Below are positions 19,415 through 49,006 of a stretch of 64,000 nt of DNA, piece by piece. Origin of the DNA: Cucumis sativus (lineage: Eukaryota; Streptophyta; Magnoliopsida; Cucurbitales; Cucurbitaceae); the NCBI RefSeq assembly GCF_000004075.3, contig NC_026658.2, forward strand, positions 13,938,075-14,002,074. Reading direction: 5' to 3'. Below the pieces are notes generated by a model. The model searched no databases. It was given only the letters and a program-made list of their open reading frames with translations, and was not told the DNA's origin. Position 1 is the stretch's first letter, and every line of letters starts with the position of its first letter. Position numbers and translations under genes: made by a program.

Positions 19415-22400
19415 ATGCTGAAATCTCATCATGTGTCTTCCCATTCGAGTTTAGAGGCTGCAGCGTTTGTAAACCCAAAGCCATTTCTTTTGAGTAATGC
19501 AAAGACGACTTTGCTTCCAATAAGATGGGACGGTGGGAGACAAAATGCAAAGTCTCATCGTCTACGTTTGGCTGGGCGGCCTTCCACCGTTATCAAAGCC
19601 AGTACCGTCGCCAGTTCGACGGAGAAGGCGGTTGCGGTTAAAGTTTTTGTGACTGTAAAACGAGTTCTGGGGACTGGGTTGTATTTGGAACGAGGGCTTG
19701 ATGACCTTGCTGATCTTTTTGGTAAATCGCTTCTTTTGGAGCTTATCAGTGCTGAGGTTGATCCTGGTTAGTGCGTTCTTTTCTCAATTAATTTAACTTA
19801 AACTTAATCATGTGCTTTCTTTTCCCATTTTGGCATTCTAATGAAATCTCTTAAAAGTGACCATACCATGAATCGTAAGTACATTCACTCTCCTGTATGC
19901 TAAACCAAAATAGAAAAAGCTGTCCCATTACTTTTTTATTATTTGATTGAAGGTAAATGCATGAAGATGAGGGGGAAAAGTAAATTTGAAGTTTTTTTTT
20001 CTTTCTTTCTCATACTATATTATATTTGAGTGAAATTTATCAAAACAAAACCTCACTCACGTGGATGGATTCTTGCTTGCAGCTCTCTTCTCTTTTCCTA
20101 TCTCGCTCTCTTCACTCTCTCCAACTCGTCTCTCAGGCTCACGCTCACGCCTCTCTCTCTCTCCTTTTCTTTCTCTAGTGTACTTGTCTTGCTCTCATTC
20201 CGATCTCTCTATCTTGGTCTCATCTCTCTCTCATGTTGTCCCGGCCTCCTCTTTCTTACTCTCCCCGTTATCACCATCTTTCTCTTGATCTATTCACACA
20301 CACACACACTCTCTCTCTTTCTACTGCATCTAATAGTTTAGAGGAATATTACTATGAGCAACACAAATGGAGGAAGGAAAATGGTGAAGAAGAAGAAAAG
20401 GATGAGAAAAAAATGAAAAAAGAAAGAATGATAAATTAATTAAGGGATATTTTGTAACTCTCTAGCTAGATGATGAAGGTATGTACGTATATAAAATGTT
20501 GATAAATACGTATCACTGGTAGAAAGTAAAAATATTGTTATATTAGTAAATATTTTCAATAATTTTGCCATTTAAAATATTTTTTTTACATATTATCTTA
20601 AACTCTAACAAATTTAAGAGATACAAATAATTTTAAAGCTAACTAATTTTAAGGGCATTTTTACTTATAATGTACTAAACCAAAATATTTACAAATATAG
20701 CCAATTGTATCCGCTTCTATCACATCGGCGTTTATCGATGCATTTAATAGACCATGATAAAATTGGATACTTTCTTATATTTTGTAAATATTTTTAGTAG
20801 TTTTGCTATATTCAAAAATATTTTTTAAAAAAGAATATTGACAAGCTTAGATATTTATTAGCATCTTGTCTTTTATATTTATATATGTATACACAAACAT
20901 ATATAAACAAGATAATTGTGTTAGATGACAACTACTTAATATACTTTTAAAAATTGCAAAAAATGTTGTAAGCAAGTTGGTTCGTTTTATATTTTCATAT
21001 ATTTGAAAGTAGCTTAACAAAACGAACTCTACGTAACCCTTCTTTTCTTAGAATGAAATATGTAATGAATGAATATAACTAAAGAAAAAGTATGAATGTA
21101 TGATTGTTATAGTAACGGGATTGGAGAAGGGAACGATAAAGAAATATGCTCATAAAGAGGATACGGAACGTGATGAGATTATATACGAAGCAGACTTTGA
21201 AATTCCTCCTGATTTTGGTCCAATTGGAGCCATTTTCGTTGAGAATGAACATCACAAAGAGATTTTTCTCAAGGATGTTGTCATTGAAGGCCTCCCCTCT
21301 GGCCCTCTCAATTTCGTCTGCTCTTCTTGGATTAATGAGAAGGATTATGACGACAGCAGGAGAATCTTCTTCACCACTAAGGTAACTCCTCATTTTATTG
21401 CTCAGATACCAGTACAAGAAAAGAAAAAATAACTCCTCTTTTTGTCTAATTCTAAACTATTCCATGTTGGTTAGTCATATTTGCCATCCAACACTCCTGA
21501 GGGCCTAAAGAGACTTAGAGAAGAAGAGCTCAAAGTTTTGCAAGGGGATGGCGTTGGCAAGCGTGAGAACCACGAAAGGATATATGATTATGATGTCTAC
21601 AATGATCTAGGCGATCCCGATAGAGATCTCGCTCTCAAAAGACCTGTGCTTGGTGGAAAACAATTCCCTTATCCTCGTCGATGTAGAACCGGACGCCCAC
21701 GTTCTAAAAGAGGTGTCTGCTTTTTTTTTTTTTCTTTCTTTTTTTCTATATTATAAATCTAATTATATGATGTATACTATTGTAGATGCTTTATCTGAAT
21801 CAAGAAGTTCAGACAATTATGTGCCTCGAGATGAAGCATTCTCACCAGTGAAACAAGCAACTTTTAGTGTGAGGACACTGACCTCAGTGCTAAAGGGGCT
21901 AATACCGGCTTTGGAGTCAGTTTCTACTGACACTGATATACGTTTCCCACATTTCCCTGCAATAGATGATCTTTATGATAATGGAGTTCCATTGCCTGCT
22001 GCCAAAGACGGTTTAAGGCAGTTGGCTACTGTCCTTCCAAGGCTTATTGACACTGTTGCTGATAGGGCTGAGGATATCTTGCGTTTCGTTCCTCCTGAAA
22101 CATTTTATAGTAAGAAACTAAACTAACTATAACCCAAATATATATATGGTGTTTTATCATTCATGACATTGTTTTTGTTCCTTCTTATTATTCAGAGGAC
22201 AAATTCTTTTGGTTTAGAGATGAGGAATTTGCTAGACAGACACTTGCAGGTCTCAACCCGTACAGCATAAGGCTTGTTACGGTATGACATTGTGTTTCAA
22301 CCATGGCATGTTTTCTAATCGGTAGTCAAAATTGGTATAACTGTATGAGTTTCTTTTGATGTCTTAATTGCAAATGTAGTTGGATTGTTTTTTTTATCAC

Positions 22401-24459
22401 GTTTACTTGAGCGTTCTGACATTGATTACGATTTAGGCTATTTTCTTTGTGCTTGTCTAGTATCAGTATCTTTTTATCGTTACCCTTTTAGAGTCAATGG
22501 TAATTATTAACTAATGGTGAAAAATTAATAATTTTCTTAGTGTAGTCATCATGCTATATATAATAGCAACGTAAACTATCTAGGGACAAAAAACAAAAAA
22601 TTGTTCAAAATTATCTGAGAAAAAGCTAGTGGCTCTCCTGTAACTTCCAAATGCAATGGGATAACCATTTTCCTTGTATAATGTACTAAACACCATTAAC
22701 GCTAACCTGATGAGGAGTTTGATTAATGCAGGAATGGCCATTGAAGAGTAAGCTTGACCCCGCTGTTTATGGTGATCCTACATCAAAAATCACTACTGAA
22801 ATAGTGGAGCAACAAATCAAAGGTTTCATGACTCTGGATGAGGTATGCCCTTGGAGATTGTTCACATTTTGACTTAAAGATTGGATTCTTCAATCACGTG
22901 TTTTTTATGACATGTTTTCTGGGGGGTGCAGGCTTTGAAAAACAAGAAGCTATTTATACTAGATTACCATGACCTCTTCCTACCATATGTAGCCAAAGTA
23001 CGAAAACTTAAAGGCACCACATTGTATGGTTCAAGGACATTGTTCTTCTTACACAAAGATAGCACTCTAAGACCGTTGGCTATTGAGCTCACTAGGCCAC
23101 CCATTGATGGCAAACCACAATGGAAAGAAGTTTTCACACCCTTTTGGGATGCCACTCGTGTCTGGCTTTGGAGGGTTGCTAAAGCCCATGTTTTAGCCCA
23201 TGACTCTGGTTATCACCAACTTGTTAGTCATTGGTGAGTCATTTCCTTTCAAATCTCAACAATCTATGGTCAAGTTTTAGTTTCACTACTTTGATACTTC
23301 GCTTCTAAAATGATGTGTTTTTGGTTTTCTATGCAGGCTTAGAACTCATTGTTGTGTAGAACCTTACATCATTGCAGCAAACAGACAACTTAGTGCAATG
23401 CATCCAATCTATAGACTTTTGCATCCTCATTTTCGATACACCATGGAGATCAATGCACTTGCTCGTCAAGCTCTCATCAATGCAGATGGGATCATTGAGA
23501 CTTGTTTTTCCCCTGGAAAATACTCAATAGAATTTAGTTCTGTTGCTTACAAAGCTCAATGGCAGTTCAACTTAGAAGCTTTGCCTGCTGACTTAATTAA
23601 CAGGTGATTATTATCTTTAACTCTTGTTCATCTTAACTTGGCTTTAAACTGCTTTACTAAATTTCCTTACCATCTTGTGTCCATTGTTGTTATGGGAAGG
23701 GGGTTGGCCGTTGAGGACCCAAATGCACCACATGGACTGAAGCTTGCTATTGAAGACTACCCTTTTGCCAACGATGGCCTGATCCTTTGGGATGCCATCA
23801 AAGAATGGGCCACAGAATATGTCAATTACTATTATCCAGATCCAAGTCTTGTTAAGGCAGATGAGGAACTTCAAGCATGGTGGACTGAGGTTCGAACTGA
23901 AGGTCATGCAGATAAGAAGGATGAACCATGGTGGCCAGTTCTCAATACTCCTGAAGACCTTATCAATATTGTCACCACCATCATGTGGGTACCTTCAGGG
24001 CATCATGCAGCAGTGAACTTTGGCCAATACTCTTTCGCTGGATATTTCCCAAATCGACCTAGTATTGCTAGAATCAATGTTCCCCTGGAAGATGTAAATG
24101 AAGAGAAGTGGGAATACTTTATCAATAAGCCAGAGAATGTCCTTTTGGAGACATTTCCTACACAGCTTCAAGCGACGAAAGTCACGGCAGTTTTGAACGT
24201 ATTGTCAAGTCATTCTCCAGATGAAGAGTATATGGGAAAAGATATTGAAGCAGCATGGGCTGATGACCTTTTTATAAAGGGAGCATTTGAGAAGTTCAGA
24301 GGAAAATTGAAGGAACTAGAAGGTATAATTGATGAAAGGAATGCTAACAAAAATCTAAAGAACAGACATGGAGCTGGGGTTGCGCCTTATAGACTTTTGA
24401 AGTCTGAATCAGAGCCTGGAGTGACAGGACAAGGAGTTCCTTACAGTATTTCTATTTAG
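19415..24459 (+). CDS. 13-lipoxygenase, plastid type 2, copy 2 (LOX2, 9 exons, 902 aa)
   Basis: Predicted plastid lipoxygenase that makes 13-hydroperoxides feeding jasmonate and C6 aldehyde synthesis. Exons: 19415-19766, 21113-21381, 21475-21712, 21786-22109, 22196-22281, 22732-22842, 22932-23233, 23337-23603, 23700-24459, with GT-AG borders and phases identical to LOX1. The first 60 residues are Ser/Arg/Ala-rich with few acidic residues, as in a transit peptide. A PLAT/LH2 domain follows (about 70-200), then the catalytic domain. Iron ligands by homology are His560, His565, His752, Asn756 and C-terminal Ile902. Exon 4 keeps [11 protein letters not shown], which LOX1 lacks. The stop is only about 320 bp from the stop of convergent kinase gene A. 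It looks fully functional. Confidence 0.92.
20085..20325. repeat. CT-rich tract with (CA)n in LOX2 intron 1
   Basis: A 240-bp pyrimidine-rich stretch (TCTCTC and CTTTCT blocks) ends in an ACACACACACACAC run near 20294-20309. It lies inside the 1346-bp first intron. Serine/leucine-rich frames across it are composition artefacts. Confidence 0.7.
20660..20830. repeat. MITE-like element in LOX2 intron 1
   Basis: CCAAAATATTTACAAATATA is on the left and TTTTGTAAATATTTTTAGTA with GTTTTGCTATATTC on the right, giving imperfect inverted ends. The middle has CTTCTATCAC and a diverged half-site. It matches the dispersed family. Confidence 0.5.
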
Positions 24460-24782
24460 AACCCATGGCATATTTGTTTTGAAGTGGGTTCAATAACAAT
24501 CTCACTTAAATAAAGAGAAGGCCATTTGAAGGAAAGGGTTCCAAGAATGTTGAATGTGTCCAAACCACTTGAAACATTAAACATCGATTGAAAATGTTAA
24601 TGATATAGAAAATTAAAAAATACTATTTGACAAAGTTCAGTATAAATGGCAAATTACATATATATAAACATTTCTCATTTCTCACAGAGAATCTAAACAT
24701 CTATGGCGGCTAAATAGACATACTTCTACATCAGTTTATTCTTAGAATAATATATACCATCGACATTACAGAAAAGAAAGTA
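24460..24782. other. Convergent 3' flanks of LOX2 and kinase A
   Basis: About 320 bp of AT-rich sequence separates the two stops. It must hold both 3' UTRs. I see no additional gene. Confidence 0.6.
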
Positions 24783-27227
24783 TCAGATAATTGTACTAGA
24801 ACTCGTAAAGGAACATGGATCAGGTGGAAAAGAGACTTCAATAGCACCTTCCAGCATCTGTAGAACTTTCTTCATGGTAGGCCTTAGGGATGGTTCTTCT
24901 TGAATGCACCAAATTGCTATCATCACAAACTTCTTCACCCTCTTCAAGTCCATCTTTGCCTCCTCATCGTTTTCTACCAACATCTCCACTTTCATGTCTT
25001 TGAAGCAGTCATAAGCCCAATCTGTGAGCACCATTTGTTCTTCATCCTCTACTTTCTTCTCATAACTCCTTCTACAACATATAATCTCCAACATTATTAT
25101 CCCAAAACTGTAAACATCCACCTTCACTGTAATGGGAAGACTTCTAAACCACTCTGGAGCCACATATCCTTTGGTTCCTCTAATCGCTGTCAGAGTTCTA
25201 GTTTGATCTTTTTTCAAAAGTTTGGCCAAACCAAAGTCTGCAATCCGTGCGGTAAAAGAATCATCCAAAAGGATGTTATGAGGCTTAATATCACAATGAA
25301 TGGTCTGAGTGCTGCACTCTTCGTGTAGATAACATAGTCCTCTAGCTATCCCAAGAATAAGTTGAATTCTAGTGTACCAATTTGGTTTCGAAGTCCCAAA
25401 AAGGAAATCTGCAAGAGACCCATTATGCATGAATTCATACACCAACATTCTGTGCTCTCCTTCGTTGCAAAATCCAAGCAATCGAACTAAGTTCTTGTGG
25501 TTTGTTCCAACAATAGCACTCACTTCAGCTTTAAATTCCTGGTCTCCCTCTTGCACTAAATTGTCCAACTTTTTAACAGCAACCAAGTTATTGTTGTCCT
25601 CAGAGTCAATAGTCCCTTTATAAACAGTAGCAAAAGAGCCACGCCCCAACTGGTGGATGAATCCACTTGTGGCCTTGTTGAGCTCTTCATAGCTAAAGAT
25701 CCTCAAATTCACATCTAAAATGGATGGATCTCGTTGAACAGGCTTTGATTTCCTTTTCTTGAGTCGGTAGCCAATGAATAAAGTGAGAAGGAATAAGAAG
25801 AAGTTGAGAAATACAGAGCTTCCTAATAGAACTGATCCAACGACAACTATTGTAGGTTTATGGACAAGATCATTTGGTTGGAAAGAAGAGTTTTGTTTCC
25901 TAACTTTGAGAAGTGCTCTTCCACCAACACTAGGATCCATTCGTCCATCACCTAGAGGGAACCGCTTCTTCCAACATTCACCATTTCTAAAGAAGGCAAC
26001 CGCACAAAAACAATCGTTCAAACATTCGTTTCTGCACCATTCCTCACTTACTACTTTGAAATAGCCATAATTAGCACTAGGCCAATTAGTATTTTCCATA
26101 GCAACAAATTCAAAGTTATCAGTCTCATGAAAGGATTGATCGCAACTCTGAGCAACAAAGTTAGGTATACAACCCTTGATCTCATCATTTGGATCAAGCA
26201 AGATATAGCCAGGAGGACAAGAACAAAATGGCCTCTGATCATCACCAAGCCTACAGTAACTATTAAATCCACACACTCCAGATCCCCAACCAGTCTGCAC
26301 CAAGATACAAATGTTTATAGAGTCTGACACTTGAGACCAAGCTCTCGGCATAGACGAACTATGTGTGGGCTTCGGGTAAGCATACAGTCCAAAAATCCCA
26401 TTATGCTCGAGAATCGCCCGTAGGTAAAAATTTCGTGGCGAAAGGGTGGTTGATAGCACAGTTGAGAGAACGGTATTATTGTTTGCAATGACATCAACGG
26501 AACCAGAGAGGTTGAACACAAGTTGGAAGCCAGAGCCCATAGTGTTACTTGCCCAGTAAGCGTTACTTGCTTTATCCAAAGGGAATGCTCTTGGGTAAAT
26601 CACAAGATTCCCATCAGTTTGCATCACAAGTTGAAACCTTCCACTCTTATAAGTGGATTCTGAATAACGAGCAACAAGAGTTCCACCCATATTCAAAGTT
26701 TGTGATGGTAAAATTGTATCAGTAGGCACATCAAAGCTTTGCCACAAAATTTCAGAATCAGCCGCAGCCAACACAAAGTTTCCACTATCAAGCATCGCAG
26801 CATAGGAAACAGATCGATTAGAATTTCCAGAGGAACTTACAGTTGCCGTCCATATTTGATTGCCTCCAGGATCATTAAGCACAAGTTGACCGCCATTAGT
26901 AAATTGAAATGTGGAACCTTTAGGTACCAAATTATCACGATTAGCTGACCAAAGCACAGTTTTTTCATCAATTCTGTCGAACCAAATGGCCAACAAAAAA
27001 GTATTAGTTCCCAAGGGTAGAAACCCAAAAGCAAAATCACCAGATTGGGAGACCCAATAGTTGTGGTGATCATTTAGTTGAGTTGCTGTGAGAGATGAAC
27101 CCAGAGTTACATTTTTAAAAAGCTGAGAAAAGGAACAAGTTGGTAGAACAAGAAGAATAAAAAGAAGAAGAAGAGAATGAAGAAATGGGGGAAAGAGAAA
27201 GTAAGATGATGTGATTTTCAAAGCCAT
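24783..27227 (-). CDS. G-type lectin receptor-like kinase A (814 aa)
   Basis: A single-exon membrane receptor kinase of the LECRK/RLK1-like subfamily, expected at the plasma membrane. Signal peptide about 1-35. Bulb-lectin region about 40-215, with an intact mannose-binding signature QTDGNLVIY at 203-211. Cys-rich EGF-like part about 305-355 (CGFNSYC, FCSCPPGY). PAN/apple-like part about 360-440. Membrane segment about 458-486. Kinase about 520-795, with Gly loop GRGSFATV from 528, Lys552, HCDIKPHN with Asp646, DFG 664-666 and APE 690-692. Cys precedes the catalytic Asp, so it is a non-RD kinase, a class often linked to immune receptors. It is the most 3' member of the tandem cluster. The start at 27227 fits the signal peptide and a TATAAAA about 103 bp upstream. 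Confidence 0.93.
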   Translation of the reverse strand: MALKITSSYFLFPPFLHSLLLLFILLVLPTCSFSQLFKNVTLGSSLTATQLNDHHNYWVSQSGDFAFGFLPLGTNTFLLAIWFDRIDEKTVLWSANRDNLVPKGSTFQFTNGGQLVLNDPGGNQIWTATVSSSGNSNRSVSYAAMLDSGNFVLAAADSEILWQSFDVPTDTILPSQTLNMGGTLVARYSESTYKSGRFQLVMQTDGNLVIYPRAFPLDKASNAYWASNTMGSGFQLVFNLSGSVDVIANNNTVLSTVLSTTLSPRNFYLRAILEHNGIFGLYAYPKPTHSSSMPRAWSQVSDSINICILVQTGWGSGVCGFNSYCRLGDDQRPFCSCPPGYILLDPNDEIKGCIPNFVAQSCDQSFHETDNFEFVAMENTNWPSANYGYFKVVSEEWCRNECLNDCFCAVAFFRNGECWKKRFPLGDGRMDPSVGGRALLKVRKQNSSFQPNDLVHKPTIVVVGSVLLGSSVFLNFFLFLLTLFIGYRLKKRKSKPVQRDPSILDVNLRIFSYEELNKATSGFIHQLGRGSFATVYKGTIDSEDNNNLVAVKKLDNLVQEGDQEFKAEVSAIVGTNHKNLVRLLGFCNEGEHRMLVYEFMHNGSLADFLFGTSKPNWYTRIQLILGIARGLCYLHEECSTQTIHCDIKPHNILLDDSFTARIADFGLAKLLKKDQTRTLTAIRGTKGYVAPEWFRSLPITVKVDVYSFGIIMLEIICCRRSYEKKVEDEEQMVLTDWAYDCFKDMKVEMLVENDEEAKMDLKRVKKFVMIAIWCIQEEPSLRPTMKKVLQMLEGAIEVSFPPDPCSFTSSSTII

Positions 27228-27329
27228 AAGCTAAAAGAAAGTAAGGCCTTTGTGAAGATGAATGGCATGATACTGATATCTTTCTTTTCATTTTCCAAGT
27301 TAGTTTCTAATGGGTCATACATATCAAAA

Positions 27330-27336
27330 TTTTATA
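27330..27336 (-). promoter_or_regulatory. Candidate TATA box of kinase A
   Basis: TATAAAA on the minus strand, about 103 bp upstream of the ATG. B and C have TTTATAT at the matching place. Confidence 0.4.
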
Positions 27337-27402
27337 AACTTACTGTTTATATATCAAACATATTAAATTGAGAGGAAAGATGATTTTCGAAAGGACAAGT
27401 AG

Positions 27403-27443
27403 CCGACTTTAAAGACTAGAAATTTCAAGTCAACTTGGGTCGG
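27403..27443 (-). promoter_or_regulatory. Conserved promoter block with W-box core, upstream of A
   Basis: In gene orientation the block reads roughly CCCAAGTTGACTTGAAATTT followed by CTAGTCTTTAAAGTCGG. It contains TTGACT, a W-box-like core bound by WRKY factors. It lies about 180 bp upstream of the ATG. Related blocks occur upstream of B, C, D and E. Confidence 0.55.
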
Positions 27444-27552
27444 TAACGTGAGAGAAGTAATTATGTGTATGCATTAGAAAATACTTAGCAACTTCACAGG
27501 TATTGCGTGAGATTGTGCGATAGGTGAGATGATTCCTTGCTATGAAGATGAT

Positions 27553-27874
27553 TCATTTCCTCAACACACTTTTCTCATAAATTTTGTGGAACCAAATGGC
27601 CAACAAAAAACCTTTACTTCCCAAGGGTAGAAACCCAAAAGCAAAATCACCCGATTGGGAGACCCAATTTAGCTGAGTTGCTGTGGAAGATGAAGCCAGA
27701 GTTACAACTTTTATGAAGTTGAGAAAATGAACAAGTCGGTAAAACAAGAAGAAGAACAAAAACAAGAAGAAAATGAAGAAATGGTGGAAAGAGGAAGTAA
27801 GATGATGTGATTTCAAAAGCCACAGAAATGTAAGGCCTTTTGTATGAATGGTGTGATAAAGAGTATATATACAT
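27553..27874 (-). pseudogene. 5' relic of a G-type lectin kinase upstream of A
   Basis: A minus-strand frame reads EITSSYFLFPPFLHFLL then LPTCSFSQL, a signal peptide nearly the same as in A. A shifted frame continues GDFAFGFLPLGSKGFLLAIW and then stops matching. Only about 90 codons of the start of the lectin region survive, with a frameshift and a small deletion (the NDHHNY part is missing). Its upstream flank matches that of the relic near 31.9 kb. Confidence 0.8.
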
Positions 27875-29084
27875 ATATTATAAAGAGTAGGTGTAGAGTT
27901 GAACAGGTTTGAGAAAAATGAAGCCCAAAAGAGAGACTTGGAAATTCATTTTTCTTTCTATTGAATACTAATGACTTGGAATATGTACAATGAAGTCAAT
28001 ACTGTGGTGCTTTAAACGTTCAGTTTGACAAAATCAAAAACTTCTTAACTTCCTTTCACACCAAAGATTTTATATATTATTGAACATCCTTGTTTTCACT
28101 TATACTCTACTCATCTTATTTCTATCGCTATGATTATTAAGTGTTTAACATCTGTTTTGTTTCTCCAACTTTGAAACAAATTTACTTTTGTTTCTGCTTT
28201 TACAGTTTTGTTAACTTTTTAACGCCTCCCACTCTTTATACACTCTTTCTAAATCTTACTAATTTATTTTATAAATCTTAACAACTTGAATCAAATTATA
28301 AGAACCACATTAAGTAGATTTTTAAAAGAAATAGAACTTATATAAATAAAATAAGTACCACGGGTATAAAATAAACTCTACAAAATTGTTAACAAATATT
28401 CTCACAACGAAAAAAAAAAAAAGCAATGAGTCAATGGAGTCTTAAGACATGAACCAAAATATGTTATTTTTAAAAATTTAAGAATTGAAATAATATTTAA
28501 ACCTTAACTTTTATAATTGTCATCCGTTAATTAATTTAAACCATTTGAAAGACTTCTTCGATAGTCATATTAACGAAATGGACTATTAGACCGAATATTT
28601 TTAAACTAATTATAAACTATAATAAAATTCATGGAATTTCTTTTAGTCAATTTCAATTGTGTTTGTTAAATTTTGTAAACACTTTCCATCTTTTGTTATT
28701 CATAAGGATTCTCGTTTTGCAAATTTGAGTAGAAATTTTTTAACTCTCACAATGTTATTATTGACAAAAAATAATGGAAGATATAAATTAAGGCATTCAC
28801 TTATCAAAATTTAAATCGACGAAATTTTTAGTTAATAATATTTTTCTTTTTCGGTCGTACGCCATAACATCGATCAAGTTTCAAAGGTCATTAATAAAAA
28901 TAAATATTAGCTCATACAACCTTTGAAATTTGTGGTACAAATTGATATAAACTAATTTCGAACATGTTCTAAACTTTCAAATTAATTTCATTGGATCACA
29001 CTACAAAACTAAAAAGAATCCTAGTTTTGATCATTTTGATTTTGAAGAAGAAAATAATAGAAGTAAACAACTGAAAAGGAAGTA
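27875..29084. other. Intergenic region between the A relic and kinase B
   Basis: AT-rich and without a gene. The left part (about 27890-28110) matches 32150-32370, upstream of the second relic. The right part (about 28790-29084) matches the 3' flank of C at 33795-33830 and 34932-35429. Confidence 0.6.
28793..28836. other. Paralogous empty site for the MULE
   Basis: CATTCACTTATCAAAATTTA then AATCGACGAAATTTTTAGTT matches the two flanks of the MULE at 33831-34922 joined together. The target sequence is present once here (ACGAAATTT, 28819-28827), against two copies of ATGAAATTG around the MULE. Confidence 0.75.
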
Positions 29085-31541
29085 CTAAGAGATTGAACTA
29101 ATGAAGGAAGATGGATGAGGAGGAAAGGAAACTTCAATGGCACCTTCCATCATCTGTAACACTTTCTTCATGCTTGGCCTTAGAGATGGTTCCTCTTGAA
29201 TGCACCATATTGCTATCATCACAAACTTCTTCACTCTTTTCAACTCCATCTTTGCTTCTTCATCTTTCTCTACCAACATCTCCACTTTCATCTCTTTCAA
29301 GCACTCATAACCCCAATCTCTCAACACCTTTTGTTTTTCATCCTCTTCTTTTTCCTCCAAACTCCTTCTACAACATATCGTCTCCAACAACACTACCCCA
29401 AAACTATAAACATCCACCTTTACTGTGATGGGGAGGCCTCTGAACCACTCTGGAGCTACATATCCTTTGCTTTCTCCATTTGTCATTGTCATTGTCATTG
29501 GGGTGGTCCGAGCTCCATCATTTTTCAAAAGTTTGGCCAACCCCAAGTCTGCAATCCTTGCGGAAAACGACTCGTCCAGAAGGATGTTCTGAGGCTTAAT
29601 ATCACAATGAATGGTTTGAGTACTACACCCTTCGTGTAGATAACATAGTCCTCTGGCCGTCTCTAAAATAATTTGAATTCTGCTGTGCCAATTTGGTTTC
29701 GAAGTCCCAAAAAGGAAATCTGCAAGAGACCCATTAGGCATGAACTCATACACCATCATTCTGTGTTCTCCTTCGTTGCAAAAGCCAAGCAATCGAACTA
29801 AGTTCTTGTGGTTTGTTCGAGCAATAGCAATCACTTCAGCCTTAAATTCTTGTTCTCCATCTGGAACCACATTATCGAACTTTTTAATAGCTACCAAGTT
29901 ATTGTTGTTGTCAGAGTCAATAATCCCTTTATAAACAGTAGCAAAAGAGCCACGCCCCAAGTGTTGGATGAATCCACCTGTGGCATTGTTGAGCTCTTCG
30001 TAGCTAAAGATCCTGAGATTCACACCTAAAATGAAAGGGTCTTCCTCAACCACATCCGATTTCCTTTTCCTGAAATGGTAACAAATGAATAAAGTGAGAA
30101 GGAATAAGATGAAGTTTAGAAAAACAGAGCTTCCTAATAGAACTGATACAATGATTGTAGTTTTGTTCCTTCGATTCTGAATTAGATCATTAAGTTTGGC
30201 AGTAGAATTTAGTTTCCTGACTTTGAGATAAGATGTTATGCCAGCAGCCTCAGGATCCATGCGTCCAAAAACTAAAGGATATCTCTTCTTAAAACACTCG
30301 CCATTTCTGAAAGCGGCAAGCGTACAAAAACAATCATTCAAACATTCGTTTCTACACCATTCCCCACTTACTGGGCTGAAACTGGCGTAAGAACCTTGAG
30401 GCCAATTCGTTTCATCCATTGCAACAAATTCGAAGTCATCAGTTTCAAGAAAGGGATTGCAACTCTGAGCAACAAAGTTGGGTTTACAACCCTTGATCTC
30501 ATCATTTGGATCAATTAAGACGTAGCCTTGTGGACAAGAGCAAAATGGCCTTCGATCATCACCAAGCTGACAATAGCTGTTAAATCCACAAACTCCACTT
30601 CCTGTACCATCACTGACCATAATACAGATGTTTACAGGGTCTGATACTTGAGTCCAAGCTTTAGGCATTGTTGAATTACTTGTGGCTTTCGGATAAACAT
30701 ACAATCTAAAAACAGCATCGTGCTCAAGAATTGCCCGGAGGTAATAATTTTTTGGTGAAAGGGTATTGGGTACCACAGTTGTGAGAATGGTATTATTCTC
30801 TGCAATCACAGAAATGGAACCAGTAAGGTTGAACAGAAGCTGGAAGCCAGAGCCCGTAGTGTTACTTTCCCAGTAAGCTATGTTTGTTGTTTCAAAAGGG
30901 AATGCATTGGGAGAAAGCACAAGATTCCCATCAGTTTGCATCAAAAGTTGAAACCTTCCACTCTTGTAATTGGTTTCTGAATATCGAGCAACAAGGGCTC
31001 CACCAATATTCAAAGTTTGTGATGGTAAAATTGTATCAGTAGGCACATCAAAGCTTTGCCACAAAATTTCAGAATCAGTCGCAGCCAACACAAAGTTTCC
31101 ACTATCAAGCATCGCAGCATAGGAAACAGATCGATTAGTATTTCCAGAGGAACTTGCAGTTGCCGTCCATATTTGATTGCCTCCAGGATCATTAAGCACA
31201 AGTTGACCGCCACTAGTAAATTGAAATGTGGAACCTTTAGGTGCCAAATTATCACGATTAGCTGACCAAAGCACAGTTTTGTCATCAATTTTGTCGAACC
31301 AAATGGCCAACAAAAAAGTATTAGTTCCCAAGGGTAGAAACCCAAAAGCAAAATCACCAGATTGGGAGACCCAACAGTGGTGGTGATCATTTAGTTGAGT
31401 AGCTGTGAGAGATGAACCCAGGGTTACATTTTTATACAGCTGAGAAAAGGAACAAGTTGGTAAAACAAGAAGAAGAAGAAGAAGAAGAGATTGAAGATAT
31501 GGGGGAAAGAGGAAGTAAGATGATGTGATTTTAGAAGCCAT
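29085..31541 (-). CDS. G-type lectin receptor-like kinase B (818 aa), mosaic
   Basis: Single-exon receptor kinase. Signal peptide about 1-34, bulb-lectin about 40-215, EGF-like and PAN parts about 305-440, membrane segment about 462-488, kinase about 522-800 with Lys553 and HCDIKPQN (Asp647). The metal-binding motif is DLG (665-667) instead of DFG. The activation segment carries an expanded Thr/Met stretch PMTMTMTNGESKGY (681-694), where A has AIRGTKGY. The lectin signature has decayed (QTDGNLVLS, final Tyr lost). The first 180 residues, the promoter and the 5' relic resemble A. From about residue 250 through the stop and the 3' flank it resembles C, with about 5 differences in about 310 residues. 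It is probably an unequal-crossover product. Confidence 0.92.
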   Translation of the reverse strand: MASKITSSYFLFPPYLQSLLLLLLLVLPTCSFSQLYKNVTLGSSLTATQLNDHHHCWVSQSGDFAFGFLPLGTNTFLLAIWFDKIDDKTVLWSANRDNLAPKGSTFQFTSGGQLVLNDPGGNQIWTATASSSGNTNRSVSYAAMLDSGNFVLAATDSEILWQSFDVPTDTILPSQTLNIGGALVARYSETNYKSGRFQLLMQTDGNLVLSPNAFPFETTNIAYWESNTTGSGFQLLFNLTGSISVIAENNTILTTVVPNTLSPKNYYLRAILEHDAVFRLYVYPKATSNSTMPKAWTQVSDPVNICIMVSDGTGSGVCGFNSYCQLGDDRRPFCSCPQGYVLIDPNDEIKGCKPNFVAQSCNPFLETDDFEFVAMDETNWPQGSYASFSPVSGEWCRNECLNDCFCTLAAFRNGECFKKRYPLVFGRMDPEAAGITSYLKVRKLNSTAKLNDLIQNRRNKTTIIVSVLLGSSVFLNFILFLLTLFICYHFRKRKSDVVEEDPFILGVNLRIFSYEELNNATGGFIQHLGRGSFATVYKGIIDSDNNNNLVAIKKFDNVVPDGEQEFKAEVIAIARTNHKNLVRLLGFCNEGEHRMMVYEFMPNGSLADFLFGTSKPNWHSRIQIILETARGLCYLHEGCSTQTIHCDIKPQNILLDESFSARIADLGLAKLLKNDGARTTPMTMTMTNGESKGYVAPEWFRGLPITVKVDVYSFGVVLLETICCRRSLEEKEEDEKQKVLRDWGYECLKEMKVEMLVEKDEEAKMELKRVKKFVMIAIWCIQEEPSLRPSMKKVLQMMEGAIEVSFPPHPSSFISSIS

Positions 31542-31712
31542 AAGCTAAGAAAGGGAAGGCCTTTTTGAAGATGAATGGCATGATAACTGATATAAAAGTT
31601 GTTTCCAAGTTAGTTTTAAATGGGTTTTAAATATCAAAATAATATAAACTTATTATTTATTTATCAAACATATTAAATTGAGAGGAAAGATGATTTTGGA
31701 AAAGACAAGTAG

Positions 31713-31753
31713 CCGACTTTAAGGACTTGAAATTTATGGTCAACTTGGATCGG
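31713..31753 (-). promoter_or_regulatory. Conserved promoter block upstream of B
   Basis: Same block as at 27403. Plus-strand GCCGACTTTAAGGACTTGAA then ATTTATGGTCAACTTGGATC. GTTGACC is present in gene orientation, about 180 bp from the ATG. Confidence 0.55.
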
Positions 31754-31869
31754 TTAACGTGAGAATAATGAATATGTCTACGCGCATGAGAAATTACTTT
31801 AGCATCTTTACAAGTGTTGAGTTATTTATAAGATGGCTCATTTCCTCAACATATTTTTCTTATAAATTT

Positions 31870-32117
31870 TGTGCAACCAAATGGCCAACAAAAAACCATT
31901 AGTTCCTAAGGGCAGAAAGACATAAAAGCAAAATCACCAGACTGGGAGGCCCAAACTCATGAGTTGCTGTGACAGATGAACCCAGAGTTACAAATTTATA
32001 AAGCTGAGAAAATGAACAAGTTGGTAAAACAAGATGATGCGATTTCAAAAGCCATAAGCTACAGATAGGTGTGGTAAAGAGTCCAAATACATAGTATCTT
32101 TCCGACTTATTTCTCAC
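31870..32117 (-). pseudogene. 5' relic of a G-type lectin kinase upstream of B
   Basis: Minus-strand pieces read LPTCSFSQLYKFVTLGSSVTATH, then in another frame WASQSGDFAF, with internal deletions and stops. It is the counterpart of the relic at 27553 but more decayed. Gene plus relic therefore formed one duplicated unit. Confidence 0.7.
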
Positions 32118-33830
32118 GCAATAATATTAGAAAAATTGTGCAGTTTTATAAAGAGTAGTTGTTGAGTAGAGGTTTGAGAAAGAAAGATGAAGCCCAAAAG
32201 AGATGTGTTGGAAATTCATTTTTCTTTCTATTGAATAACAATGACTTGGAATATGTATAGCCAACAGTTCCTTTAAATGTTGAGTTTGACAAAATAAGAA
32301 ATACTTAAATTTGTTTCACACCAAAGACTTTATATTTATATTCAACATTGTTGTTTTCACTTATACACTATATGCATCTTTTTATCCATCTACTCTATCC
32401 AATATTACTACTAACACACTAGGGAGCTATTTGGAAACTCGAATAATTTTGGAGAGTCGGGTTGGGTGGATAAAAAACCTTATAATCTAAGAAGTTTATT
32501 ATCTCATTATTCACGTTAATTCACATTTTTTGCCTGTTTATTCGTGTCAACTTTCGAATTATTTCTCTATAATTATTACCAACTAAACTATGTGTTTTTA
32601 TTGCTAACTAAACACCTCCAAAATGTATCAATTTAATCATTAACTTTTGAGTTAAAAATACTATTTTGGTCCTTAAACTTTTAAAATTGTCTGTTTCGGT
32701 TCTTAAACTTTGAAAAAAAATTATTTTTGTCCATGTGGTTAGAATTTCGCTAACTTTTGAACCACGTGACTTTTGATATTTAGATTATTAGACCCTAGAT
32801 TTATAGTATTGATTAAATTGATAAATAACCAAAAATCAATTAACTAATTTATTCCATCAATCCAGGATGTCAACATAAAAATATAATTAAAATACTTGAA
32901 TCAAATAAACTCAAATTTAAAATTGATCTTTTTCTTTTTCTTGAGAACTTGAAATCTCTCACATCTCCTCTCGACTTTCCATCATTTGTTTTAATTGAAA
33001 TCTTGAAGCAAATCAGGACATTGAGTAGGATAAAAAAAACTAGAAATATCGTAATTGAAAGTTGAGATTAATCCAATTATGAAAATTTAGAAATAAGAAT
33101 TTTTTTAACATATATCAAAATATCGAATTTATTATTATTACTATTTTTTTTATTGTAGTACCTATGTATCTATCAATATATATATATAGATGTTTTTAAA
33201 TTCGATTTTGTATACTTTATAAGCAAAATTTTGAAGTTGTAAAATGGTATAATGTTACAAAGGCATTTTGAAGTTATAAAATGGTACAATGTTACGGCCT
33301 TTGTTCTAAGCTTACAATATTAAAAGTTTAAAATAACAAAATCCACGCACAAATAATTTTTTTGTAAAATTATTTTCATAAAATTAAATAAAATTATTTA
33401 CTTTTTATTCTTCAATCACACACATATACATATCATTCGTTTATTATTGATTTACACCGTATACTTAAATTTATCATTTCATCTCCTATTACCTTTATTT
33501 TTAATAATAAATAATTTTAAATTTTCATGAATTTAAAATTACTAAAAAAAATTTGTAACAAAATGAAACATTTGAAAATTGAATCTATATAATATTAAAA
33601 ATTACAAAGTTAGAAATTGAATCTATACAATATCAAAAGTTATAAAGATAAAAAAATAAAAATAAAAAACATCAAAATCACAAATACATCCCACTTTTAT
33701 TGGAATAGTTTTGAAAACATCCATTTTTTTCAATTTTTTTTTTAGAACACCTATTTTTCTTCAAATAACCCGGTAATGTATGAAATAAATTAAGTCATTC
33801 ACTTTTCAAAGATTTAAATAGATGAAATTG
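32118..33830. other. Intergenic region left of the MULE
   Basis: AT-rich with no gene. The left 250 bp match the flank of the A relic. Positions 33228-33297 hold a 37-bp tandem duplication (ATTTTGAAGTTGTAAAATGG and ATTTTGAAGTTATAAAATGG). TTTTGGTCCTTAAACTTT near 32660 is typical of dispersed plant repeats. Confidence 0.5.
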
Positions 33831-34922
33831 GGGTAGATAAAGACTTTTAGGATTGATTGTAAAAAAGTTGACATTTAGGACAAATTGAAGGTGAAATGAC
33901 GAAAATACCCTCATTTAATTTCCTTCCTCTTTTCTTCAACCCAAAGACAGAGAAGGCCGTTCAAAAAAAAAAAAAAACGTAAACCTCCCGCATTTGAACT
34001 CTCCCGCCTCTGCAGTTACCCCCTTCAACTCTCTCCCGCCTCCGGTGAACGTTTTTCTCTTCCGTCCATTTCTTCTCCACTTCCATCCATTTCTTCTCCA
34101 CGACTCTCCACTATATTTTCTGATTTCAACTTTTTCACCGAACATCTCCATTTCTTCTACACGGGTCTCTGTTTTAGTTTTGACTTCAACTCCGGTGAAC
34201 GCTTCTCCACTTCCATCCATTTCGATTTCAATTTAAGAACCTGCAAGATGTCTGCGAGATGTTTGCGAGATGTCTACCTGATGTTTGCGAGATATAATAA
34301 TAATAATAACAAATTGCTAACATCCTTTGAAACATCTCTAAAACAACCTTAAATCAACCCTAAATCAACTTGAAACAATAAAAAATAATATTTGATTTAT
34401 ACATTTAAGATGCAAATATATATACATATAACACAACACAATTCATATTCGGATTTAAAAAAATTAAAACAAACCACAATGCGTGAGATGTTCGCCGGAG
34501 TAGATGATGAACGACATCGAAGTAAAGCGGAAAGTTGACAAACTTTTGAGAGAGGAGAAGAATTGCAAATGGGTTTTTCTTTTTTCTTTTTCCTTTACAT
34601 AATCTATGAGAAGGAGAAATGCAACAAATGAGTTTTTCTTTTTTCTTTACGTAATCTATGAGACTGCAACAGAAGGATTTTTTTTTTCCCCTTTACGTAA
34701 TCTACGAGGAGAGGAGAAGAAGGTTGTCTTCGAAATTCTGTTTTTTTCCTTCAGATGAATGACATTGAAGAGAGAGAGAGGTTGGAAAAGAAGAGAAGAG
34801 CAAATGTGAATTGAAATTAAATGAGGGTATTTTCGTCATTTCACCTCCAATTTGTCCTATATGTCACCTTTTTTACAATCAATCATAGAAGTCTTTATCT
34901 ATCCCATTTTTGTCAATTCCCC
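33831..34922. mobile_element. Non-autonomous Mutator-like (MULE) DNA transposon, 1.09 kb
   Basis: Long terminal inverted repeats lie at 33831-33921 and 34813-34922. Both share GATAAAGACTT, GATTGATTGTAAAAAA, GGACAAATTG and AAATGACGAAAATACCCTCA. They are flanked by a perfect 9-bp direct repeat, ATGAAATTG (33822-33830 and 34923-34931), the target-duplication size of the Mutator superfamily. The left end lacks about 17 nt present at the right end, apparently deleted between two GGG triplets. No transposase is encoded. The interior has purine/pyrimidine-biased short repeats (TTCCATCCATTTCTTCTCCA; GCGAGATGT) and about three copies of a unit containing CTTTACGTAATCTACGAG, and may include captured host sequence. 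Confidence 0.88.
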
Positions 34923-35429
34923 ATGAAATTGTTAGTTCATTAATTTAATTTTTTTATTTTATTTTTACAATATGAAAGGTAGGTCGTAGGCCATAACATC
35001 AACTTTCAAAGGAGAGAATACAACTACAGGTCAGTTGATACAACCTTTTAAATTTGTGGTATAAATTACCTAGTCTATCACTTCAATTTCTCTTCAGATC
35101 TTCACCTTTTAGATAAAATTTTATATTTCAATTTAATACTGAAAATTAACAAGGTGAGATGATGTGACAAGCATTTTAAACAATTTCTAGGATAATATAG
35201 GATGTTAAGACTTACGTCGCAGAGAGCTTATAATAAGACTAACATTTAATGCTTTTTATTAGTTAGACTCACACACTTCATGTTCATAATTAATTGTATG
35301 GGACAAACATCTCCTCTACTTTCAAATTAGTTTCATTGGATCACACTATAAAATCTAAACAATCCTAGTTTTTTATCATTTTGATTTTCAAGAAGAGAAT
35401 AAAAAGAGTAAACAACTGAAAAGGAAGTT

Positions 35430-37883
35430 CTAAGAAATTGAACTAATGAAGGAAGATGGATGAGGAGGAAAGGAAACTTCAATGCCACCCTCCATCATCT
35501 GTAACACTTTCTTCATGCTTGGCCTTAGAGATGGTTCCTCTTGAATGCACCATATTGCTATCATCACAAACTTCTTCACTTTTTTCAACTCCATCTTTGC
35601 TTCTTCATCTTTCTCTACCAACATCTCCACTTTCATCTCTTTCAAGCACTCATAACCCCAATCTCTCAACACCTTTTGTTTTTCATTCTCTTCTTTCTCC
35701 TCCAAACTCCTTCTACAACATATAGTCTCCAACAACACTACCCCAAAACTATAAACATCCACCTTTACTGTGATGGGGAGGCCTCTGAACCACTCTGGAG
35801 CTACATATCCTTTGCTTTCTCCATTTGTCATTGTCATTGTCATTGGGGTGGTCCGAGCTCCATCTTTTTTCAAAAGTTTGGCCAACCCCAAGTCTGCAAT
35901 CCTTGCGGAAAACGACTCGTCCAGAAGGATGTTCTGAGGCTTAATATCACAATGAATGGTTTGAGTACTACACCCTTCGTGTAGATAACATAGTCCTCTG
36001 GCCGTCTCTAAAATAATTCGAATTCTGCTATGCCAATTTGGTTTCGAAGTCCCAAAAAGGAAATCTGCAAGAGACCCATTAGGCATGAACTCATACACCA
36101 TCATTCTGTGTTCTCCTTCGTTGCAAAAGCCAAGCAATCGAACTAAGTTCTTGTGGTTTGTTCGAGCAATAGCAATCACTTCAGCCTTAAATTCTTGTTC
36201 TCCATCTGGAACCACATTATCGAACTTTTTAATAGCTACCAAGTTATTGTTGTTGTCAGAGTCAATAATCCCTTTATAAACAGTAGCAAAAGAGCCACGC
36301 CCCAAGTGTTGGATGAATCCACCTGTGGCATTGTTGAGCTCTTCGTAGCTAAAGATCCTGATATTCAGTACACCTAAAATGGAAGGGTCTTTTTCAACCA
36401 CATCCGATTTCCTTTTCCTGAAATGGTAACAAATGAATAAAGTGAGAAGGAATAAGAGAAAGTTTAGGAAAATAGAGCTTCCTACTAGAACTGATACAAT
36501 GATTGTTGTTTTGTTCCTTTGATTCTGAACTTGATCGTTAAGTTTGGAAGTAGAGTTTAGTTTCCTGACTTTGAGAAGAGAATTTTCGCCAGCAACAGCA
36601 GGATCCACGCGTCCATAAACTAAAGGATATCTCTTCTTCCAACACTCACCATTTCTGAAAGTAGCAAGCGCACAAAAACAATCATTCAAACATTCGTTTT
36701 TACACCAGTCCTCACTTACTGGGTTGAAATTGGCGTAATCCCCGTGAGGCCAATTCGTATTTTCCATAGCAACAAATTCGAAGTCATCAGTTTCAAGAAA
36801 GGATTGATCGCAACTCTGAGCAACAAAGTTGGGTTTACAACCCTTGATCTCATCATTTGGATCAATTAAGACGTAGCCTTGTGGACAAGAGCAAAATGGC
36901 CTTCGATCATCTCCAAGCTTACAATAGCTATTAAATCCACAAACTCCACTTCCTGTACCATTACTGACCATAATACAGATGTTTACAGGGTCTGATACTT
37001 GAGTCCAAGCTTTAGGCATTGTTGAATTACTTGTCACTTTCGGATAAACATACAATCTAAAAACAGCATCGTGCTCAAGAATCGCCCGGAGGTAATAATT
37101 TTGTGGTGAAAGGGTATTGGGTACCACAGTTGTGAGAATGGTATTATTCTTTGCAATCACATAAATGGAACCAGCAAGGCTGAACACAAGCTGAAAGCCA
37201 GAGCGAGTAGTGTTACTTGCCCAGTAAGATATGTTTGTTTTTTCAAGAGGATGGGGGAAAAGCACAAGATCCCCATCAGTTTGCATCAAAAGTTGAAACC
37301 TTCCACTCTTACAATTAGTTTCTGAATAACGAGCAACAAGAGCTCCACCCATATTCAAAGTTTGTGATGGTAAAATTGTATCAGTAGGCACATCAAAGCT
37401 TTGCCACAAAATTTCAGAATCAGTCGCAGCCAAAACAAAGTTTCCACTGTCAAGCATCGCAGCATAAGAAACGGATCTATTAGTATTTCCAGAGGAACTT
37501 GCAGTGGCCGTCCATATTTGGTTGCCTCCAGGATCATTAAGCACAAGTTGGCCGGCACTAGTAAATTGAACTGTGGACCCTTTAGAAACCAATTTATCAC
37601 GATTAGCTGACCAAACCACAGTTTTTTCATCAATTTTGTAGAACCAAATGGCCAACAAGAAACCTTGACTTCCCAAGGGTAGAAACCCAAAAGCAAAATC
37701 ACCAGATTGGGAGACCCAATAGTTGTGGTGATCATTTAGTTGAGTTGCTGTGAGAGATGAGCCCAGAGTTACATTTTTATAAAGCTGAGAAAAGGAACAA
37801 GTTGGTAAAAGAAGAAGAAGAAGAAGAAGAGAATGAAGAAATGGGGGAAAGAGGAAGTAAGATGGTGTGATTTTAAAAGCCAT
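35430..37883 (-). CDS. G-type lectin receptor-like kinase C (817 aa)
   Basis: Single-exon receptor kinase. I start at 37883 (MAFKITPSYF...), which gives a signal peptide aligned with A and B. The frame stays open 42 codons further upstream but that part is unrelated. Order: signal peptide 1-33, bulb-lectin, EGF-like, PAN, membrane segment about 460-486, kinase. The lectin signature is changed (QTDGDLVLF: Asn to Asp, Tyr to Phe), so mannose binding is doubtful. HCDIKPQN has catalytic Asp646 (non-RD). DLG is at 664-666, and the same TPMTMTMTNGES activation segment as B is present. B and C share nearly the whole kinase domain, the stop region and the 3' flank. The MULE lies about 510 bp beyond its stop. 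Confidence 0.92.
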   Translation of the reverse strand: MAFKITPSYFLFPPFLHSLLLLLLLLPTCSFSQLYKNVTLGSSLTATQLNDHHNYWVSQSGDFAFGFLPLGSQGFLLAIWFYKIDEKTVVWSANRDKLVSKGSTVQFTSAGQLVLNDPGGNQIWTATASSSGNTNRSVSYAAMLDSGNFVLAATDSEILWQSFDVPTDTILPSQTLNMGGALVARYSETNCKSGRFQLLMQTDGDLVLFPHPLEKTNISYWASNTTRSGFQLVFSLAGSIYVIAKNNTILTTVVPNTLSPQNYYLRAILEHDAVFRLYVYPKVTSNSTMPKAWTQVSDPVNICIMVSNGTGSGVCGFNSYCKLGDDRRPFCSCPQGYVLIDPNDEIKGCKPNFVAQSCDQSFLETDDFEFVAMENTNWPHGDYANFNPVSEDWCKNECLNDCFCALATFRNGECWKKRYPLVYGRVDPAVAGENSLLKVRKLNSTSKLNDQVQNQRNKTTIIVSVLVGSSIFLNFLLFLLTLFICYHFRKRKSDVVEKDPSILGVLNIRIFSYEELNNATGGFIQHLGRGSFATVYKGIIDSDNNNNLVAIKKFDNVVPDGEQEFKAEVIAIARTNHKNLVRLLGFCNEGEHRMMVYEFMPNGSLADFLFGTSKPNWHSRIRIILETARGLCYLHEGCSTQTIHCDIKPQNILLDESFSARIADLGLAKLLKKDGARTTPMTMTMTNGESKGYVAPEWFRGLPITVKVDVYSFGVVLLETICCRRSLEEKEENEKQKVLRDWGYECLKEMKVEMLVEKDEEAKMELKKVKKFVMIAIWCIQEEPSLRPSMKKVLQMMEGGIEVSFPPHPSSFISSIS

Positions 37884-38075
37884 AAGCTGAAGAAAGGTAA
37901 GGCTTTTGTGAAGATGAATGGCGTTGATACTGAGATAACAGTTGGTATATAAATTTCTTTTCACTTTCCAAGTTGGTTTTTGTTGGGACGTCATACATAT
38001 CAAAATCATATAAATTTATTACTTATGTATCAATAACATTTAATTGAGAGGAAAGATGATTTTGGAGAAGAAAAG

Positions 38076-38116
38076 TAGCCGAGTTTAAAAACTAGAAATT
38101 TCTAGTCAACTTAAGA
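38076..38116 (-). promoter_or_regulatory. Conserved promoter block upstream of C
   Basis: Plus-strand AGCCGAGTTTAAAAACTAGA then AATTTCTAGTCAACTTAAGA. Gene orientation gives AAGTTGACTAGAAATTT, with TTGACT as W-box-like core. It lies about 200 bp from the ATG. Confidence 0.5.
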
Positions 38117-38814
38117 CTTAATTGCCCAGAAAGAAGAAAGAAAAGGAAGAAATGAGACGTTCAGAAGTTGGAGTCAATTGATGCATTCGTTTATCTATAG
38201 ATTAAATGTACCATTTGACACTTTTAAACTTTGAAGATATTTGTCAGTATCAGCTTGAATAAGACACCCATTATTATTTTTAACGACTATATAAATTCGG
38301 TTCCTCATCCACTTATCTTAAATTTGAATAAAAATTTATTAAATGTAGTTGGAAAAAAATTAACTTTCATCTCTAAAAACTTAACAAATTTGGATTAAAT
38401 TTGACTAAAATTTTCTTTTCAACAAATTAGATCTTAAACTTCAATAAGTGTAGCGATTTTCCTTAATTTAATCCTCACTTTTTTATGGGGAAAATGGTAG
38501 AAATCTTTGTAAATTTTCAGAGTAGTTTCATGGATTCCAACCAACTATAATTTTGCTAATTCTATGTTGAATGTATATTTGGTAATTCCTTGAAGGCATA
38601 AAAATGCTTCTTTTTCTTTATGATATTTGGAACAAGAACTATTATAAGTTTTCAACATGTTGTAAAGTTTATGGTTAAAATTGCAATACATATGGATACA
38701 ACTTGACAAGTGAGTCTTGATTTTTCAAGGTGCGATATTGCAACAGAAATAGCAACATCTCCGTAGTTGGTGGCCCCAGACTCGACACATCCATGGAAAT
38801 TCCTAACAATTATG

Positions 38815-48060: not shown

Positions 48061-48126
48061 TTATTTTCCTTTTACTCTAACTAAAAATTAAAGATTACTT
48101 TCAAATTTACGAATTAAATTTAAATT

Positions 48127-48277
48127 AATTAAGTATATAACACAATTTTAAAAAATTTACAAATATAGTAAAGTTTGTCAAATTCTATCAATCATATAAG
48201 TCTATCACTCATAGACCATGTTAAAAATAGTTTTGCTATATTTGAAATTTTTTTAAAATGTTGTTATATCCTTAATT
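48127..48277. repeat. MITE-like element, short copy (151 bp)
   Basis: The left end AATTAAGTATATAACACAAT then TTTAAAAAATTTACAAATAT is the imperfect reverse complement of the right end ATATTTGAAATTTTTTTAAA then ATGTTGTTATATCCTTAATT. This gives inverted ends of about 45 bp. The middle carries TTCTATCAATCATA and GTCTATCACTCATAGACC. Confidence 0.65.
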
Positions 48278-49006
48278 ATTATTGCTAAAATAGTCATTAA
48301 TTGCAATTTCTCAAAAATTAATTAGTTTATCTAATTAACTATATCATTAAAAAAAATTAATCACCTTACCAATTAATTAATCGTATTTTCTTAAATCTAA
48401 CAAAATGTGAAAATATATTAGGGGATGTCAATTAATAGCAAGCATTTTGTGTATTTTCTATTGTGGGTGTGATCTTCCTTTATTCTATAAGTGTAAATAG
48501 GTCGCTTTTGTTCTATTTTATAAAAGGCCTCATTAATTAATTCATTTACTCGGTCAATATTGGAGGACTTCTGAAATCAAAAGATAAATATTTTTTATTA
48601 AAAGTATGATAAAAGATTAGTCCAATTTGGTTTGAATGAGTTAGTATATTATAGAGAAAAAAAATGATCTACCTCGACATTTAAAAGCTGTCAATTTAGC
48701 CAATTATAATACCAACATAATAAAATTTTCAAAGTATATACTTCTCTTGATATAGTGCTCCTAGACTCAGCAAAGTGTTTCAAAATCCTAGCAAGGTGCT
48801 CGTCCTACTACTGATCCTCATGATGGTACTTGAAAAGTGAAAAATATGTATCTCACTCCATTGATGAACACTCATCCCAAATGGTTTTCAACCGATAAAT
48901 TTCAACAATGTGATAACTGTGAACATATGCATTAAAAAAAATTAGTTGTAGTTAATCGACTATATCATTGATACTCATGGGAGATTTGAAATGATGGCCT
49001 GATAGC

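Follow-up and report, generated by a model that had tools for sequence, protein, structure and literature searches.

When neighbouring receptor genes resemble one another unevenly along their length, which of them is the gene that was changed? This question arises for genes A, B and C in the 64,000-nucleotide stretch of Cucumis sativus DNA analysed here (hereafter the window). An earlier note had described gene B as the hybrid, formed by one unequal crossover between its tandem neighbours that joined a ligand-binding half to a different signalling half. The evidence set out below leads us to favour gene A as the recombinant member of the triplet.

The Array and Its Gene Models

Eight plant G-type (B_lectin) receptor-like kinase (RLK) genes stand in tandem in the window, all on the minus strand and in the order A to H; the array ends at position 57626, and the translations of its genes can be aligned over the whole length. 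Gene A (24783-27227), gene B (29085-31541) and gene C (35430-37883) are intact open reading frames, and the tracts, relics and flanks of these genes that are described below lie on the minus strand as well. The coordinates of gene C are counted from the ATG that matches those of A and B; an additional in-frame ATG is present farther upstream, at 38009. Left of the array, duplicated gene pieces that we take to be lipoxygenase-like, a family name assigned from their translations, are found at 5788-10731 and 21111-24457 in blocks that are 68-91% identical.

Gene B encodes a protein of 818 residues. In a Pfam scan of A, B and C, the B_lectin domain (PF01453) of B was located at residues 89-178 (69.6 bits; cut-off 32.4) and its kinase domain (PF00069) at residues 525-797 (160.9 bits; cut-off 31.7), and both domains are present in A and C too. 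By its B_lectin domain and C-terminal Ser/Thr kinase, B is a plant G-type lectin (S-domain) RLK. PAN_2 reached 19.8 bits in B, just under its Pfam cut-off of 21.1, and no match to the S-locus glycoprotein family was found in A, B or C at E 0.001. Seven general kinase or lectin-like NCBIfam matches all remained under their cut-offs. Among the best 60 of 984 matches, the closest solved chain to the B kinase is the BAK1 kinase, and the translations contain a hydrophobic stretch ahead of the kinase, a candidate transmembrane segment. All eight array genes carry HCD in the catalytic loop of the kinase, which we presume to mark it as the non-RD type, and B and C share the replacement of DFG by DLG together with a short activation-loop insertion, features that are absent from the other six genes. 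Other domain combinations are likewise common among G-type lectin RLKs, according to the accessible part of a published account (PMC3616866).

Divergence among Genes A, B and C

The counts from which B was first judged a hybrid are correct: over residues 51-130, B differs from A at 7 of 80 positions and from C at 13 of 80, and in the kinase (Pfam range 525-797) it differs from C at 4 of 273 positions and from A at 52 of 268, with 6 of 310 differences from C over residues 509-818. Absent from that reasoning was the comparison of A with C, which differ at 12 of 80 positions in residues 51-130 and at 54 of 268 in the kinase. A and C are hence also close in residues 51-130, and the 5' part is therefore nearly a three-way relation. 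When the genes are compared in 150-nt steps, A, B and C are mutually close over the first ~600 nt, and A then departs from both.

Across 2418 ungapped columns, A and B alone agree at 57, B and C alone at 290, and A and C alone at 54, and all three differ at 10. The sites at which A and B alone agree are concentrated in B CDS 151-450 (21, against 4 C-like sites and 4 at which B stands alone); B CDS 1-150 is mixed and not A-like (3 A-like and 4 C-like sites, and 6 at which B stands alone). A two-class change-point scan (MaxChi) of the sites at which B agrees with a single neighbour revealed a strong clustering of A-like and C-like sites in B, with the best break at CDS 453/463 separating a ratio of 25:8 on the left from 32:282 on the right (reached in 0/10000 permutations); limited to B CDS 1-640, the same scan yields a marginal break (504/10000 permutations). 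Shared-derived sites, with 8 and 11 ambiguous sites left aside, amount to 8 A-B-derived and 11 C-derived sites in CDS 1-600 and to 0:19 beyond (p 0.003). That A-B-derived sites occur solely in CDS 1-600 fits a transfer between A and B, which may have run in either direction.

The strongest discontinuity lies farther along the coding sequence. The divergence between A and B changes at B CDS 624 from 4.3 to 18.2%, and that between A and C changes at the same position from 6.6 to 17.6% (0/2000 permutations each); for B and C, the change-point is at 1525 (7.4 to 1.1%; 0/2000 permutations), and no significant break was detected for this pair within CDS 1-1521, the best one being reached in 357/2000 permutations. 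Since the A-B and A-C divergences jump together at CDS 624 and B-C has no significant break before 1525, the strongest break is that of A. Uniform divergence with no breakpoint, the outcome named by the earlier note as speaking against a hybrid B, is thus found for B-C within CDS 1-1521, whereas A-B departs from it. When the analysis was confined to codons specifying an identical residue in A, B and C, the break was placed at 699 for A-B (0/5000 permutations) and at 696 for A-C (11/5000); an unrestricted scan of synonymous codons only did not return a significant B-C break at the kinase (650/5000 permutations; 28/350 differences on the left, 1/229 on the right).

Tree-based analyses place the main partition break, expressed in B coordinates, at 30918-30998 (B CDS 544-624), across which the A-B and A-C divergences both jump. 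In a GARD-like greedy search on seven genes (A to E, G and H), the largest AICc gains came from breaks at B CDS 544 (195.8), 1522 (131.7) and 214 (29.8), and smaller ones followed at 700 (11.3) and 94 (9.9); AICc was still improving when the search ended at five breaks, the last with a gain of 9.9, so that their number may exceed five. The first break improved lnL by 112.9, none of 60 single-tree simulations gained more than 25.2, and unlinked branch lengths described the main break better than a pure change of rate (2dlnL 156.8). In AU tests, the grouping (B,C) is favoured from 544 to the end, its rivals being rejected at p below 1e-5 from 701 on, at 0.004 for 544-1098, and at 0.019 and 0.051 for 544-700 alone. 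With outgroups, (A,B) is marginally preferred in the 5' part (rivals at p 0.047-0.071 for segments 151-456, 214-543 and 1-543), and no tree is preferred for segments 1-150 and 457-600.

Synonymous sites bear the same mark. The A-C dS is 0.115 in CDS 1-600 as compared with 0.530 in 601-1560 and 0.377 in 1561-2454 (0.38-0.59 beyond the 5' part overall; Fisher 4e-8 for 1-600 against the rest), and the A-B dS is 0.062 in CDS 1-600. The 5' part shows no drop in dS for A-G (1.19 in 1-600, 0.95 and 1.01 beyond; Fisher 0.36), and for A-E its dS is higher than that beyond. The A-D value is lower in the 5' part (0.67 in 1-600, 1.49 and 0.99 beyond), and B-D and C-D behave alike; therefore, some of the 5' closeness could be regional, but the A-B and A-C drops, of about 3 to 8 fold, are larger.

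From these patterns, recombination within the triplet is well supported, and their plain reading would be that the 5' end and the rear of A come from different sources. The B/C-like 5' part of A, the first ~624 nt of a gene whose remainder is deeply diverged, corresponds to 26601-27227, an edge that is approximate as it was transferred from B CDS 624 via the alignment.

Tracts of Low Divergence

Two tracts stand out against this background. The A-like tract in B, at 31089-31324 (CDS 218-453, residues ~73-151), overlaps the B_lectin domain. Over CDS 151-456, A and B have 0 synonymous differences in 68.5 sites, all their differences being non-synonymous, as compared with 8.5/73.8 in the remainder of CDS 1-600 (p 0.007); A-C dS and B-C dS are both 0.182 in this segment. 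The notion of a ligand-binding half united with a different signalling half would describe A better than B, since the A-like tract in B is a piece of the lectin domain and the other parts of the ectodomain follow C; a less probable model with an added conversion of C, considered below, would keep B as the hybrid.

The second tract, at 29085-30016 (B CDS 1526 to the stop codon), comprises the kinase domain, in which B and C have a dS of 0.028 and a longest identical run of 331 nt; in the three segments ahead of it, B-C dS is 0.150, 0.067 and 0.136. Synonymous differences between B and C number 5/183 in CDS 1561-2454 vs 38/345 before (p 0.0007), and dN/dS falls from 0.77 over CDS 601-1560 to 0.25 in the kinase. 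Homogenisation sets in near residue 509, shortly ahead of the kinase domain as delimited by Pfam (from 525), and stops close to the end of the coding sequence, given that the adjoining 3' flank is ~14% different. A stretch with 1.1% differences from CDS 1526 on, flanked by 7.4% before it and by ~14% in the 3' flank, has the pattern of gene conversion, and the close likeness of the two kinases, judged from these values, is most readily taken as a separate and younger homogenised tract.

Flanking Regions and Relics

The proposal that the promoter and upstream region of B are those of A is borne out for the distal part with its relic, whereas the proximal part is not clearly A-like. The upstream block of B that is common with A (31542-32370, corresponding to 27228-28109; 74% identical in gapped BLAST) includes a relic of a gene 5' end at 31850-32070, whose partner upstream of A is found at 27565-27859. 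In their upstream DNA, A and B differ at 178/826 positions, or at 109/652 when two ~40%-different blocks that look misaligned are removed (17-22%). In the proximal promoter, the differences amount to 23/198 for A-B, 34/206 for B-C and 35/210 for A-C (12-17%; Fisher 0.20 and 0.16). The upstream region of C matches those of A and B over ~230 bp only: its proximal part (37884-38112) is common with both (76-78% in BLAST), and its distal part (38165-38291) is 83% identical to the D upstream segment 41631-41757 and marks a possible exchange boundary. This C-D likeness exists although the coding sequences are far more diverged (dS about 1.0), and it suggests a further exchange or a shared insertion.

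On the 3' side, the flank of B (28772-29084) is of the C type, as had been noted: 28961-29083 matches 35306-35428 at 86%, and the patches 28853-28943 and 28772-28826 match as well. The homology of the two flanks is patchy, and that of C (33774-35429) is interrupted by the segment 33817-34918, which is bounded by 117-nt inverted repeats with 87% complementarity and looks like the remnant of a DNA transposon. The difference between the B and C 3' flanks is 14% by BLAST and 24/124 end to end (14-19%). No other match to the 3' flank of A (24460-24782) was found within the window at E 1e-4. Placed side by side, the flanks differ by 17-22% (A-B upstream) and 14-19% (B-C 3'), and the coding tracts have dS values of 0 to 0.18.

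No observation speaks more strongly for an old unequal duplication than the mixed flanks of B, with an A-type distal upstream region and a C-type 3' side. The likeness of A and C from about -230 to +620 prevents the flanks from placing the crossover within that stretch. The relics were also considered as a marker of polarity and discarded: relic RA is 12.2-13.4% different from each of A, B and C, and this about equal distance therefore gives no indication as to which 5' type is native. An intergenic tblastn search for gene 3' halves with proteins A, C, D, G and H returned N-terminal pieces only (residues 1-92).

A Proposed History of the A/B/C Triplet

Two layers of relationship have to be accounted for, an old split of A from B/C with a dS of about 0.4-0.6 from CDS ~624 to the stop codon, and a much younger three-way relation that covers the first ~600 nt of coding sequence as well as the proximal promoter. 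The claim that one unequal crossover made B survives as far as recombination among A, B and C and the mixed flanks of B are concerned; a single crossover inside B is unsupported because it predicts A and C to be far apart throughout, yet they are close in CDS 1-600.

We consider it somewhat better than an even chance that the array was shaped by repeated exchange, in which an old unequal duplication was combined with gene conversion and A was the converted gene. The A-B-C triplet, and with it the mixed flanks of B, would go back to an A-like gene and a C-like gene that crossed over unequally at a point within about -230 to +620. Then, or at about that time, gene conversion would have placed a B/C-type 5' end onto A, leaving a protein whose lectin end and rear differ in history. 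Later conversion may have made a portion of the lectin region uniform between A and B, and the kinase domain uniform between B and C, with the likely effect that nearly the same kinase would be kept among neighbours while their ectodomains diverge. The polarity of the conversion is not fixed by the window, and a model with an overwritten C would, by our count, require an equal number of events.

Such a model, to which we assign a distinctly smaller but still appreciable probability, has B arise by unequal crossover within the coding region (5' part from A, 3' part from C), the 5' end of C (about -230 to +600) being separately overwritten by the A/B type. It draws on the A-type distal upstream region and C-type 3' flank of B, on the excess of A-like over C-like sites in CDS 151-450 (21 to 4), on the restriction of A-B-derived sites to CDS 1-600, and on the similar neutral divergence on the A-B upstream and B-C 3' sides. 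However, it requires an extra conversion of C with an edge that coincides with the A-B/A-C break, and a B derived from two sources would lack a B-C break over CDS 1-1521 only by coincidence.

We regard as unlikely a history in which A is a deletion fusion between an older left-hand gene, which contributed the rear and the 3' flank, and a former B/C-type copy at the position of A, with B being a plain copy of C in all but its converted kinase. The deeply diverged 3' part of A, its 3' flank with no match in the window, and its 5' and upstream parts that match B agree with such a fusion, but C has a D-like stretch in place of the relic-bearing upstream region, so that an extra event at C would be needed, and more duplications are required. 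An assembly artefact, by which near-identical copies were collapsed or mis-joined, seems very improbable: tandem copies are easily mis-assembled and tracts without synonymous differences between copies do exist here, yet all three open reading frames are intact, each copy has private changes, and the proximal upstream regions are 12-17% different. It is scarcely credible that selective constraint or mutation rate simply varied along genes that did not recombine. The kinase is more constrained than the ectodomain (B-G dN 0.20 in 1561-2454 vs 0.29 in 601-1560), and D is less distant in the 5' part, but the pattern is seen in synonymous sites and runs in opposite directions for different pairs. 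A proportional-rate model, in which nothing but the rate varies, is rejected at each of the two main breaks (2dlnL 156.8 and 70.3).

The F/G/H Triplet

Mixed histories are observed in both close triplets of the array. Gene F (45420-47847, minus strand) is frameshifted, consists of two overlapping open reading frames and is a mosaic: its upstream region is H-like (21/228 different from H, 106/210 from G), as is its 5' part, and its kinase end is G-like (1/150 and 2/150 differences in two windows of comparison), with 0/5000 permutations for each of the three contrasts. The 3' flank of F is nearer to that of H than to that of G (24/122 vs 73/167), and the pattern of F is therefore one of an interior conversion tract. 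The F-G intergene harbours an inverted pair of related blocks at 48093-48308 and 49337-49608 (82-83%).

Implications

The array offers a readable example of concerted evolution, with kinase ends homogenised, ectodomains diverging, and flanks that record an old unequal duplication. It also advises caution, in that a gene that seems hybrid from two pairwise counts need not be the one that was changed, and trees built from the kinase only could mis-order the copies of such arrays. The data of the original observation were right, their comparison was incomplete, and the kind of event is ordinary for such gene clusters; knowledge of G-type lectin receptors is left unaltered by this finding.

Comparison with Known Receptor Kinase Clusters

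The rice Xa21 family and other resistance-gene clusters with unequal recombination are familiar cases in which receptor genes in tandem exchange sequence and differ in history between their 5' and 3' parts; Xa21-type genes are LRR receptors, unlike the B_lectin genes considered here. In literature searches on RLK and lectin-RLK clusters with conversion or unequal crossing over, on Xa21, on OsLecRK/Bph3 and on SRK/SLG, the array was not described in the titles and abstract beginnings of the matches listed.

A close published precedent, by analogy, is the OAK cluster of Arabidopsis thaliana, which the accessible part of the report presents as a tandem RLK array with duplications and deletions (PMC3136440). 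Two neighbouring genes of that cluster share an identical 2.7 kb fragment attributed to gene conversion, which begins 13 bp ahead of the start codon and ends 60 bp inside the kinase; the homogenised part is thus the region ahead of the kinase in OAK, and the kinase itself in B and C. A promoter described there stems for the most part from a piece of RLK coding sequence, to which the relic found upstream of both A and B, putative promoter DNA, is comparable. OAK differs from the array genes by its malectin-like and LRR regions and its lack of a B_lectin domain, and it comes with accession and phenotype data (PMC3136440), the present array being known from its sequence. It is conceivable, though in our view improbable, that such an array could act as a device for assorting receptors, in which kinase ends are homogenised (B/C, F/G), lectin ends and promoters are moved between genes, a coding relic now serves as promoter DNA as in OAK, and A and B couple shared expression to different signalling halves.

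More broadly, 377 conversions in 626 multigene families are given in the accessible part of a survey of rice (PMC2277409). In peanut, the corresponding part of a genome-wide study records gene conversion for 19 out of 52 clusters of tandem RLK genes, with tracts of 16-1771 bp (PMC8215822). These are genome-wide counts, and the lengths of the A/B/C tracts described here fall within the peanut range.
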